From assembly GCA_036557285.1 (NCBI GenBank), contig DATBHW010000040.1, positions 1 through 64,000 on the forward strand: a DNA stretch of 64,000 bases, read 5' to 3'. Numbering within the stretch: position 1 is the stretch's first letter; each line of letters begins with the position of its first letter. Source of the stretch: Ktedonobacterales bacterium. Its GTDB lineage: Bacteria > Chloroflexota > Ktedonobacteria > Ktedonobacterales > DATBGS01. Shown piece by piece: positions 6,881 through 50,343 of the stretch. The notes under the pieces were generated by a model, which was given only the letters and a program-made list of their open reading frames with translations, was not told the origin of the DNA and did no database searches. Both the position numbers and the translations under genes were made by a program.

Positions 6881-7245
6881 TTCAGGTACAAACGCGCTTG
6901 AAAGTGGCCGATAACAGCGGGGCGAAGGAGATCATGTGCATTCGCATCCTGGGAGGTTCGGCCAAGCAATATGCCGGAGTTGGCGATATTATCAAGGCTT
7001 CTGTGAAGCAGGCGGCCCCAAATAGCGCGGTGAAAAAAGGTGAAGTGGTCACGGCGGTAGTTGTGAGGGTTGCCAAAGAATATGGTCGGGCAGATGGGTC
7101 ATATATCCGCTTCGATGAGAACGCTGCGGTGATTCTGGTGGCGGGGAACAATCCACGCGGCACCCGTATTTTTGGCCCCGTTGCGCGTGAACTGCGCGAC
7201 CGCAACTTTATGAAGATCATTTCCCTGGCTCAAGAGGTGCTTTAG
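6877..7245 (+). CDS. rplN: 50S ribosomal protein L14 (uL14)
   Basis: 122 residues from GTG 6877, overlapping the rpsQ stop by 4 bases. Blocks [55 protein letters not shown] and [16 protein letters not shown] are diagnostic for L14, which forms an intersubunit bridge and is the docking site for ribosome-silencing factor RsfS. Size is normal and no low-complexity addition is seen. A 146-base gap containing a dispersed palindromic repeat separates it from rplX. Confidence 0.98.
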
Positions 7246-7346
7246 AATGCCTCACAAAACCGATGGTTGGCCCCACCCCTGCCGCCTGGAAGGACGGCGC
7301 TACACCCCCGCCCCTGCTCATGCGGAGGTTTTGTTAGGTACTCTTA
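7245..7346. repeat. Dispersed palindromic repeat, copy 1 (rplN-rplX spacer)
   Basis: About 100 bases matching 34035-34136 without gaps at roughly 90% identity by eye. The ends form an imperfect inverted repeat: CCTCACAAAACC at the left and GGTTTTGTTAGG at the right pair at 11 of 12 positions. The middle is C-rich with GCCGCC and GGCG blocks. No coding capacity is apparent. It looks like a MITE- or REP-type intergenic element inserted inside an operon that is normally compact. Confidence 0.75.
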
Positions 7347-7391
7347 GGAGTGGCTTCGCGCGCCATTTGGTAGAGGGAGCAAGGTAAGGTT

Positions 7392-33970: not shown

Positions 33971-34034
33971 CGATCCCCACAGGCAAATTACCCCTAACCG
34001 GTATTCCTGCTTTTGGCGGTTAGCCGCGTCCTAA

Positions 34035-34136
34035 GAATGCCTCACACAACCGACGGGTGGCCCCACCCCTGCCGCCTGGAAGGACGGCGCTACAACCCCG
34101 CCCCTGCTCGTGCGGAGGTTGTGTCAGGCGCTCTAA
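34035..34136. repeat. Dispersed palindromic repeat, copy 2 (rnhB-yvcK spacer)
   Basis: Matches copy 1 in the rplN-rplX spacer without gaps, about 10 differences in 102. Its ends CCTCACACAACC and GGTTGTGTCAGG pair at 11 of 12 positions. The A-to-C change in the left arm relative to copy 1 is matched by a T-to-G change in the right arm, so pairing is kept. Here it lies between convergent genes and its last bases overlap the yvcK stop region. Confidence 0.75.
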
Positions 34137-35212
34137 GCCTCTAATTGCCAGTGGGCTGGCGGCGTCTCCGTATTACCGGGCATCAGGACGGCCCGCACCA
34201 GGCGTTCCGGGTCATGGCGCACGTAATGGTCGGCGCCAATGGCTATCAGCCGGTCAACCGTCATCTCAGGCACCAACTCCTGGATTCGTTCGACATCAGG
34301 CGGCACCGGATGTTGTTGTTTCTCTGCATATAGCTCTCTCAGGTGTTCGGGGAAGGAGCCGTCATGCAGAATCACTCGATCAACCCGCCCGCCCAGGTAA
34401 TGATGGATTTCACGCACGAAATCGGACGCCTGGAACTCGTCCGTCTCGCCGTGTTTGGTCATCAGGTTACAGACATAGACTTTTTCGGCTTCCGATTCTC
34501 GAATCGTGCGGGCGACATCCTCAACCAGCAAATTGGGAAGGATACTGGTATAGAGATCACCAGGGCCAATGATGATGACATCGGCCCGCCGCAGGGCGCG
34601 AATGGCCTGGGGGCAGGCGGGAGTCGAGTCGCTCAAGAAAATGCGCTTGATGGCTGGCAGGGGGCCGAGGTCTTTAAAGCCACGAGTATCTATGTTGGTT
34701 TCCCCACAGAGCGTGCTGCCGTCAGCCAGTTCGGCGCAAAGGGTGGTGTGTGCCAGAGTAACGGGAAGGACAGCTCCAGCCGTTTCCAGAAGTTCCTGCG
34801 CGTCCTGTACGGCCAGGAGGAGATCGCCACCGTTGATTTCTTGCAGGGCGGAGATGATCAAATTACCGAGGCTATGCCCGCCGACGCCTTCGACCCGGCT
34901 GCCTCCCTCGCTCTGCCCCCCATTGTTTACGTGTACCCCCTGGGGGAAGCGAAAATTGAAGATGTCGCGCCAGAGGACGCCGTTGCGTGAAAGGGCGACG
35001 AGAGCTTGCCGCAGATCGCCAAAGGGGAGCTGGCCGAATTCGTCCATCAGTCGGCGTGAACTGCCGCCGCTGTCGGCCATCGAAACGACGGCGGTGATCG
35101 AAAAGGGATACTTTTTGAGGTTGGAGAGGACATGAAACGGACCAGTGCCGCCTCCAAGGGTCACTACGCGCTTTCCTGCTAATCGTGACCAGAATCGGTG
35201 GGGTGCATCCAT
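34133..35212 (-). CDS. yvcK: YvcK/CofD-like protein (putative gluconeogenesis factor)
   Basis: 359 residues. Rossmann-type start RVVTLGGGTGPFHVLSNLKK, SMADSGGSSRRLMDEFGQLP, FGDLRQALVALSR and, later, IIIGPGDLYTSILPNLLV are typical of YvcK, which binds UDP-sugars and affects cell-wall precursor metabolism and growth on gluconeogenic carbon in Bacillus. The often-linked rapZ and whiA genes are not in this stretch. A TATAAT on the minus strand (35261-35256) lies upstream with no clear -35. Confidence 0.9.
   Translation of the reverse strand: MDAPHRFWSRLAGKRVVTLGGGTGPFHVLSNLKKYPFSITAVVSMADSGGSSRRLMDEFGQLPFGDLRQALVALSRNGVLWRDIFNFRFPQGVHVNNGGQSEGGSRVEGVGGHSLGNLIISALQEINGGDLLLAVQDAQELLETAGAVLPVTLAHTTLCAELADGSTLCGETNIDTRGFKDLGPLPAIKRIFLSDSTPACPQAIRALRRADVIIIGPGDLYTSILPNLLVEDVARTIRESEAEKVYVCNLMTKHGETDEFQASDFVREIHHYLGGRVDRVILHDGSFPEHLRELYAEKQQHPVPPDVERIQELVPEMTVDRLIAIGADHYVRHDPERLVRAVLMPGNTETPPAHWQLEA

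Positions 35213-47659: not shown

Positions 47660-47674
<15 letters not shown>
47633..47674. repeat. Two tandem 20-bp operator-like repeats, 22-bp period
   Basis: CTCCCCTAAATAGGGTATTT occurs at 47633-47652 and again at 47655-47674, exactly. Each unit carries an inverted repeat CCCTA-AA-TAGGG. The 22-bp period puts both on one face of the helix. They lie 81-122 bases upstream of the secreted-protein start, and the second overlaps the 3' end of the LuxR-type gene. Likely a binding site for a dimeric regulator, possibly the LuxR-type protein itself. Confidence 0.7.
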
Positions 47675-47989
<315 letters not shown>

Positions 47990-48147
47990 CGCTGCATCCT
48001 TTCGTGTCCATGCGGATAGGCTGTGCAGAGTCCGTTAAAGCGCCAGAGGTTCGCCGAGCGGTGGAAAGGTACCGAGCCGAGAACAGTATAGCTGAACTTT
48101 GAGGAAAACGCCAGTGTTTTTTCTAGGTATTCTTACTGGCGCTCTTT

Positions 48148-48188
48148 AGTAAGGAGGTAAGAGGATTGCTAGCTCTTGACAACCAGCG
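48148..48188. repeat. 41-bp direct repeat, copy A
   Basis: Identical to 49399-49439. It spans the 3' end of the two-TM protein gene (codons for LVVKS and the stop) plus 21 bases beyond the stop. The flanks then differ, apart from short related GGCGCTCTT-like sequences in opposite orientation on the outer side. Confidence 0.9.
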
Positions 48189-48498
48189 CCAGCCAGGCAG
48201 CGATGGGAAAAATACGCGAGGAGAGAAGAGTAGAGAGATCGCCATTAGCGTTCTCTTGGTAGCGCATGACTACGTAAACCACCAGAAAGATGAGGAAGGC
48301 ACTGCTACCTAATACTAGCCACCAGATACCCACGCCACGCAGCAGATTGGCAATGCGTTGCGGCCAGGACACGGTTGCATCGCGCATCTGGCGGCGCATC
48401 GCGTACCTCTCTGCAAAGAGCAAGGCCACACAGATGACAGCAATAGCAGAGATAATGAGCAAGGTATCAGGTGGTTGAGCTGGGATTGTCGTCGGCAT
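48169..48498 (-). CDS. Small membrane protein, two predicted TM segments, unknown function
   Basis: 109 residues. Hydrophobic segments: LLIISAIAVICVALLFAE near the N-terminus and IWWLVLGSSAFLIFLVVYVV in the middle; a third weaker one at the end (IFPIAAWLALVV). Charged residues between them (RYAMRRQMRD) suggest that the loop is cytoplasmic. No family recognised. Its last codons LVVKS and downstream bases are identical to the end of the DMT transporter gene 1.25 kb away, through the 41-bp repeat. The SurA-like gene is just upstream on the same strand. Confidence 0.6.
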   Translation of the reverse strand: MPTTIPAQPPDTLLIISAIAVICVALLFAERYAMRRQMRDATVSWPQRIANLLRGVGIWWLVLGSSAFLIFLVVYVVMRYQENANGDLSTLLSSRIFPIAAWLALVVKS

Positions 48499-48541
48499 GA
48501 AAATACCAGCCTCTCTTAGATTCCCAGGCTATAGCTGCTTT

Positions 48542-49318
48542 CTACTGAAGCGAGATGAAGATTTGGATGCTTGCAGCTTGCCGAAGCTTCTGTGTGTAGT
48601 TTGCTATTGCCTGCTGGATCGCCTCCTGGTTTTGCTGTTCGCTTGCTGGCAATGATGCAATGATGTGCTGTATCATCGCTCGTTGCACGAGCGCATCGTG
48701 ATAGCCGCGCAGAACCAGCGGGTTTGTTGTGAAATTTGAGGTATCAAGGCGGTTCACACACAGATATGCTTGGAAGGTGGTGTGTGCAGGGCTTGAAGTT
48801 GGTTCGCTCTGAAAACGCTGCAACTGCTGCTGGGCCTCGGCTTGTGCTTCTGCTTGGGAAACGGATATTCCTAGACGCTGGGCTTCTTGCATAAAAAGCT
48901 CAGCGTCAATGAGTTTGTCGAGCATATCCTTGCGCAGTTGGGCAGGTGTTTTCTGTAACGCAGATCTCGTGCTTGCTGGGGCATCGGCAGGAAGTTGCTG
49001 CAAAGATGCCTGATGGCTCTTGAAAGCTATGTTTACCCGCGTTTCTAAGTCAACAGCACTGATCTGATGCCCATTGACCGTCGCTACTATTGCTGGTTCA
49101 CCGGCAGGGATGGCCGTCGTCTGCGCGCGAGTGTGAGGATCCAGCACTGGCGCCATCGCAGAAGCAGCTACTACTGCTGTGTCACCGCAGGCTCCATTAC
49201 TGGCTGCCTCAGCAGGTGCAATTAGATGAGCGATGAGAATCCCGCTCACCAGAAGCAAGACCAGCACGCCTGTACTAACAGCAAGACGAATACGAAGCGA
49301 TGAAAGCCGAATCTGCAT
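48542..49318 (-). CDS. SurA N-terminal-domain-like secreted or membrane-anchored protein
   Basis: 258 residues. A membrane segment LAVSTGVLVLLLVSGILIAH is followed by a linker and an extracytoplasmic domain: IVATVNGHQISAVDLETRVN then ELFMQEAQRLGISVSQAEA. This matches the SurA/PrsA-type N-terminal chaperone helix pattern, without a parvulin domain because the protein ends soon after. It may act as a folding factor for the secreted proteins encoded nearby, which is inference. Cys residues at about 43 and 187 could pair. Confidence 0.75.
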   Translation of the reverse strand: MQIRLSSLRIRLAVSTGVLVLLLVSGILIAHLIAPAEAASNGACGDTAVVAASAMAPVLDPHTRAQTTAIPAGEPAIVATVNGHQISAVDLETRVNIAFKSHQASLQQLPADAPASTRSALQKTPAQLRKDMLDKLIDAELFMQEAQRLGISVSQAEAQAEAQQQLQRFQSEPTSSPAHTTFQAYLCVNRLDTSNFTTNPLVLRGYHDALVQRAMIQHIIASLPASEQQNQEAIQQAIANYTQKLRQAASIQIFISLQ

Positions 49319-49398
49319 TGCCAGGTACCTCCATCCTTGGGCAGGTCTATCGCTGCCCTCCTCAGATATTATATGCTAGGGAGCACTAAGAGCGCCAG

Positions 49399-49439
49399 AG
49401 TAAGGAGGTAAGAGGATTGCTAGCTCTTGACAACCAGCG
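49399..49439. repeat. 41-bp direct repeat, copy B
   Basis: Identical to 48148-48188. It spans the last codons (LVVKS-stop) of the DMT transporter gene and 21 bases past it. The 1.2 kb between the copies carries the two-TM and SurA-like genes. Confidence 0.9.
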
Positions 49440-50343
49440 TCAGGCCGCCCACGACGAGCGCCATCCCCGCCAGTTTGGGGAGGGTAATCGGTTCCTCCAG
49501 CAGGAGATTTGCCAGTACCAGGGAAATACCGGGCATCAGGAACGAATTATAGGTGGTGCGGATAGCGCCAATGCGCTTGATAAGCCAGAAGGTGAGCGCG
49601 AAGGTGACGCAGCCAGCCATAATTGCCAGATAGAGCAAGATACTGATATTAAGTGCTGTCCAATGCACCGGCTGCCCGCGCTCGAAAAGCAGGCTGGCGC
49701 TTGAGAGGATGAGGCCGCCCAACAGGAGTTCCCAGGCGGTGAGCGGCAGCAGGGGGAGATCGGCGGTGCTTTTGGCGACGCGCATTGCTGCCCCGTAAAA
49801 GATTGCTGAGCAGAGAACAGCGCCCTCGGCGGCCAGCGCCTGCCCTTCGCCGATACTCAGTTTGTCAATGAAGACCAACATGACCCCCAGCAGCCCGATC
49901 ACCAAACTGAGGGGAACGCGCCAACCGCGCGCTTCGTCGCGGGCGCGGAAGCTGATCAACGCGGTGAAAATAGGGGATATGGCCCAGATGGTTGAAAGTG
50001 TGCCTGCTGGTCCGTATTGAGACGCCCAGAAAAAGCAGGCGCTGGGAATCCCGATGATGAGAAAGGCCAGCAGCAAGACGCCCGGAAAGCGTTGACGAGG
50101 AAGAAACAGGCGCTCCTGGCGAATCAGCAGGAACGCGAAGAGCAGCGCCCCAGCCAGGCAAAAACGCGCCCCGGCCAACAGAAAGGGCGGGATGCCGCTC
50201 ACACCGAGCTTCACTGCCACCGAGAATGACCCCCAGATCAAGGTCATCAGGCCAAAGCCCAGGGCCGTCTGGATGGTCCAGACAGACCTGGTGGGTTGGA
50301 CGGCCTGGGACGCCTGGGCGGTTTCGCTCTTTTCAGTGGTCAT
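49420..50343 (-). CDS. EamA/DMT-family transporter
   Basis: 307 residues with about ten TM segments in two EamA repeats. Typical features: GFGLMTLIWGSFSVAVKLG at the start, PPFLLAGARFCLAGALLFAF, and the second repeat ending NSFLMPGISLVLANLLLEEP followed by ITLPKLAGMALVVGGLTL. It is probably a drug/metabolite exporter of unknown substrate. The last five residues and the 3' flank are part of the 41-bp duplication. Confidence 0.88.
   Translation of the reverse strand: MTTEKSETAQASQAVQPTRSVWTIQTALGFGLMTLIWGSFSVAVKLGVSGIPPFLLAGARFCLAGALLFAFLLIRQERLFLPRQRFPGVLLLAFLIIGIPSACFFWASQYGPAGTLSTIWAISPIFTALISFRARDEARGWRVPLSLVIGLLGVMLVFIDKLSIGEGQALAAEGAVLCSAIFYGAAMRVAKSTADLPLLPLTAWELLLGGLILSSASLLFERGQPVHWTALNISILLYLAIMAGCVTFALTFWLIKRIGAIRTTYNSFLMPGISLVLANLLLEEPITLPKLAGMALVVGGLTLVVKS

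Follow-up and report, generated by a model that had tools for sequence, protein, structure and literature searches.

The window analysed here, meaning the whole stretch of DNA under study, comprises 64,000 nucleotides from a Ktedonobacterales bacterium. On its minus strand, the genes for an EamA/DMT transporter, a SurA_N-like protein and a small membrane protein lie side by side, and the first and last of them end in the same 41-bp sequence. The features of the locus are listed below in window coordinates.

48105..48145, minus strand: hairpin resembling a terminator, located past the left copy of the 41-bp repeat, with an 11-bp stem, a 19-nt loop and a U-rich 3′ arm
48136..48147, plus strand: CTGGCGCTCTTT, inverted motif by the left copy, forming the 5′ arm of the hairpin on the minus strand
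48148..48188, minus strand: left copy of the 41-bp repeat, read as acquired, supplying LVVKS, the stop codon and 21 bp to the small ORF
48169..48498, minus strand: small membrane-protein ORF, 109 aa, of no recognisable family
48542..49318, minus strand: exported or anchored SurA_N-like protein, 258 aa (SurA_N_3, E = 2.7e-13)
49368..49373, minus strand: TATAAT, read from the sequence, which may serve the two-gene segment as a −10 box, with no good −35 element
49385..49398, minus strand: CTGGCGCTCTTAGT, inverted counterpart by the right copy
49399..49439, minus strand: right copy of the 41-bp repeat, native by homology, comprising the end of the DMT coding sequence and 21 bp
49420..50343, minus strand: EamA/DMT transporter, 307 aa (EamA, E = 4.5e-35), the putative donor of the repeat

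The SurA-like protein has distant homologues in the same order (29–37% identity) and gave no match to a PPIase domain. Its pairing with the small ORF is not conserved, as the neighbours of these homologues vary and do not include a small-ORF partner. The small ORF encodes three hydrophobic segments, two of them clear and the last, of half length, running into the repeat at the C-terminus, and neither a family nor a credible homologue was found for it among 100 relatives. Its three best weak matches were rejected because they contain a stop codon and overlap a conserved aldolase-like ORF in antisense; all other matches were weaker still. The TATAAT sequence upstream of the two-gene segment received no score in a promoter scan. 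Further to the left, the 3′ end of a LuxR-type ORF (47660-47989) contains a run of about 16 CT dinucleotides (47704-47735), which encodes a repeated RE tail and is a candidate slippage site.

Positions 48148-48188 and 49399-49439 are an exact 41-bp direct repeat, AGTAAGGAGGTAAGAGGATTGCTAGCTCTTGACAACCAGCG, whose copies are offset by 1251 bp from start to start. On the minus strand, each copy consists of two codon bases, CTG GTT GTC AAG AGC TAG (LVVKS and stop) and 21 non-coding bases, that is, the last 20 coding bases of the transporter gene and the 21 bases past it, and it is in frame both with the small ORF, which stops at 48169, and with the DMT gene, which stops at 49420. Outside the repeat, the two proteins have nothing in common. 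The original prediction of an identical repeat joining the ends of two otherwise different genes thus agreed with our comparison in position, exactness and frame. A scan of the whole 5.1-Mb genome (82 contigs) that allowed up to 3 mismatches yielded these two copies and no third site. By our own arithmetic, about 1e-15 chance matches of a 41-mer are expected in 64 kb, and a chance origin of the repeat is ruled out. On the plus strand, both copies also contain AAGGAGGT, which matches the anti-SD sequence perfectly and precedes a TTG start (48151-48168 and 49402-49419), and a 95-aa frame antisense to the DMT gene lies behind the right copy; this arrangement is probably due to chance.

In alignments with six homologues (41–45% identity), the last helix and C-terminus of the DMT protein (GGLTLVVKS) fall in line with the homologues' own ends, for example LGCALVEK, so the right copy is the native one. 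The small ORF, for its part, is without homologues, and the short hydrophobic stretch at its C-terminus stops inside the repeat, which suggests that the left copy was acquired.

Directly past each copy, on its 3′ side in the sense of the genes, lies CTGGCGCTCTT; the occurrence by the left copy is on the plus strand (48136-48146) and the one by the right copy on the minus strand (49388-49398). In 1000 shuffles, no match as good as that of the two outer flanks was obtained. Short GGCGCTCTTAG-like motifs in opposite orientation had been predicted to flank both copies: the opposite orientation was borne out by CTGGCGCTCTT at both places, but the motifs lie on the same side of each copy rather than around it, so that the inverted pair brackets 48136-49398. 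On the minus strand, the left copy is followed by CTTACT-AAAGAGCGCC-AGTAAG and the right copy by CTTACT-CTGGCGCTCTT-AGTG. When the left spacer is turned back between its CTTACT/AGTAAG arms, the alignment of the copies gains about 14 bp, interrupted by two small gaps; with the 41-bp copy left out, 16 of 20,000 random pairs scored as well as this match, which was found after looking. Because the alignment extends past the 41 bp upon re-inversion, the duplicated unit is about 55 bp long, one of its copies having an inverted tail, and because this inverted tail carries two gaps, more than clean copying must have happened. The spacer thus lies inverted between inverted arms relative to its homologous copy, as is characteristic of template switching, apart from the two gaps. 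The tails past the inverted spacer gave no convincing alignment, their likeness depending on the scoring scheme, and a similarity between the sequences on the two sides of the left copy was dropped since it was not robust across scoring schemes. At the other junction, we found the microhomology CTGRCGCTGG.

Other origins of the motif were rejected. It is not a transposon end, having no target duplication outside 48136/49398 and no family in the 428 kb sampled, and the left form of the motif had a single, unrelated near match in the genome. The genome does harbour MITEs of one family, about 101 bp long, which have inverted ends GARYGCCTCACACAACCG and a REP-like core and sit in a 3-bp TTA/TAA target duplication. 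These elements end in GAGCGCC after the target duplication, as does the motif here, but the match ends after 7 bp (TAA-GAGCGCC) and its orientation would be inside-out, and the MITE end was discarded as unrelated. At least 19 near-full copies of the MITE are present in the genome, 12 of which were aligned from an 828-kb sample; two are located in the window (7244-7347 and 34034-34137), and others include L080:6650, L081:13337, L084:4895, L090:3270 and L083:7082. No copies were found in 46 genomes of the same order, and none of five DDE_Tnp_1 matches was an autonomous partner with the same ends. The MITE contains a version of a palindromic repeat of intergenic regions, typified by GCCGCCTGGAAGGCGGCGCTACAAGTGG, which occurs in tens of copies in the 828 kb (L079, L081, L087, L090, L091 and many other places).

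The hairpin at 48105-48145 folds with −13.8 kcal/mol (z = −3.66; 0 of 200 shuffles) and was missed by a simple terminator scan because its loop is too long. It is lost when the spacer is turned back to the opposite orientation. Because either orientation could have been the first, the hairpin is indecisive as to whether the left flank is the former terminator of the DMT gene. The repeat region matched no Rfam family, and the sequences surrounding the copies have at most a slight folding advantage over shuffled ones. A regulatory or terminator motif whose sequence selection preserves at both gene ends would explain why the repeat takes in the stop codons of the two genes and their trailers, in the same sense, but these folding and family searches, the want of more copies in the genome and the identity of synonymous positions too make such a shared element extremely doubtful, and no function for the repeat itself is indicated.

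To gauge the base rate, we surveyed the 828-kb sample for exact repeats 26 bp or longer whose copies are 0.1–6 kb apart. The matches were mostly paralogous genes or the abundant palindromic intergenic repeats, and a single further pair, isolated and with flanks that are not related, stood out, a 32-mer whose copies are 244 bp apart (L069 19306/19550) and which adjoins palindromic intergenic repeats. The 41-bp case is therefore uncommon, not unique in kind, and the base rate is thin, such isolated repeats being rare in 828 kb. A further region, L089:2405-4120, holds several exact repeats of 30–40 bp with mosaic flanks inside 1.7 kb, which suggests recombination between tandem paralogues. With respect to age, 41 identical sites exclude at 95%, for neutral copies and by our own arithmetic, only a divergence above about 3/41 = 7%. 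Because identity over 41 bases merely bounds divergence at about 7%, the recent date that had been proposed for the event follows only weakly. The duplication of a gene end that was proposed along with it did stand, the DMT copy being native by homologue alignment, and insertion of a 1.2-kb segment between the copies, also considered in the original prediction, is possible.

With regard to such an insertion, the segment 48148-49398 has direct repeats at both ends and the transporter gene is intact to its native C-terminus. It contains no recombinase or other mobility gene; the tyrosine recombinases of the genome, five clear ones and one fragment, are all on other contigs, where one pair of adjacent genes was noted (G000:C60:106851-108343). 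The GC content of the segment is 0.53 compared with 0.60 for the DMT gene, and the ORFs to its left are at 0.50 (LuxR-type) and 0.54 (secreted protein). Because the low GC carries on leftward, the left copy is no compositional border, and the segment is not a compositionally separate insert. The repeat was absent from the viral contigs searched, as was the SurA-like protein from the viral contigs and plasmids searched. No close relative, whether from the same family or at the DNA level, was found for an empty-site comparison, the order-level DMT homologues being at most 45% identical with unlike trailers, and a literature search on integration at gene 3′ ends returned nothing specific.

Site-specific integration at the 3′ end of a gene leaves direct repeats of such a size and keeps the gene whole. 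A mobile cassette (48148-49398) integrated in this manner at the DMT 3′ end, with the 41 bp as attachment core and a tyrosine recombinase acting in trans, would thus produce the observed arrangement; the core carries an imperfect inverted pair, AAGAG/CTCTT, and the genome could provide the enzyme. Integrative elements that restore a protein gene at its 3′ end likewise have a direct repeat over the last codons and trailer of a whole host gene. Unlike these, however, the segment here carries no integrase, occurs once in the genome and has its displaced copy fused in frame to another ORF. With no mobility gene, a single occurrence, an indistinct composition and no match of the repeat in viral contigs or of the SurA-like protein in viral contigs and plasmids, the mobile cassette is improbable. 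More specifically, the two genes might form a cassette without a recombinase of its own that was captured in trans between stop codon and terminator, duplicating the host gene end as attachment core and allowing precise gain and loss, which we judge very improbable. Were the segment precisely excisable, the locus would represent a cassette system whose attachment sites are gene ends, which the present data do not demand. There is also hardly any likelihood of an assembly artefact, that is, a misjoin at a recurring k-mer in the draft genome (82 contigs, estimated contamination 3.7%), since plausible genes lie between the copies, the contig is 176 kb long and a de Bruijn misjoin presupposes an existing repeat.

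The main rival to a one-off duplication is a transfer of the gene end without any insertion, in which the SurA-like gene and the small ORF already followed the DMT gene and a copy of the DMT gene end replaced only the 3′ end of the small ORF, through ectopic conversion or a short template switch. We regard this as unlikely, yet deserving of serious attention. It accommodates the low GC that runs unbroken from the segment into the left flank and does not need the block to be split by a later insertion; the third hydrophobic stretch of the small ORF seems cut short at the repeat, and CTGRCGCTGG provides microhomology at the entry point. Against it, no relative with an unaltered small ORF was found, and the hairpin after the left copy alone would better fit a former trailer of the DMT gene, although that point hinges on the orientation of the spacer.

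Because the repeat is exact and unique, the segment is free of a recombinase and the motif does not belong to a family, we favour, with modest confidence, a one-off copying of the DMT gene end over 1.25 kb by a non-specific event, either illegitimate recombination or replicative template switching, with no dedicated recombinase. The copied piece would have comprised the DMT stop codon, the 21-bp trailer and about 14 bp more, and it would now end the small membrane ORF. Template switching is proposed because a spacer inverted between short inverted arms is its signature, and such a switch may have inverted the spacer here. Possibly, the duplication arose as the segment with the SurA-like gene and the small ORF came between the transporter and its downstream sequence; against this account, the segment cannot be told from its left flank by GC content.

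Template switching that yields spacer inversions has been documented in yeast (PMC8604942), and template switching is said to have been thoroughly studied in microbes (PMC8794818). The locus resembles the inversions described there (PMC8604942; PMC8794818) in that a short spacer is inverted between short inverted arms, here CTTACT/AGTAAG, and a hairpin is present in one spacer orientation only, but it differs from them in that the inversion comes together with a direct copy of 41 bp at a distance of 1.25 kb and in that the event would be deduced rather than reconstructed. Duplications by illegitimate recombination with microhomology share with the locus an isolated, unique repeat with unrelated flanks and microhomology at one end; nothing distinguishes the two, though the repeat here exceeds typical microhomology.

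The likely consequences are a small protein with a hybrid C-terminus and, from the pair of repeats, a possible RecA-dependent loss of the segment. We view the locus as an ordinary, isolated rearrangement scar and not as an active mobile element, one that matters little alone and that serves as an example of a gene gaining a new C-terminus and trailer from its neighbour.
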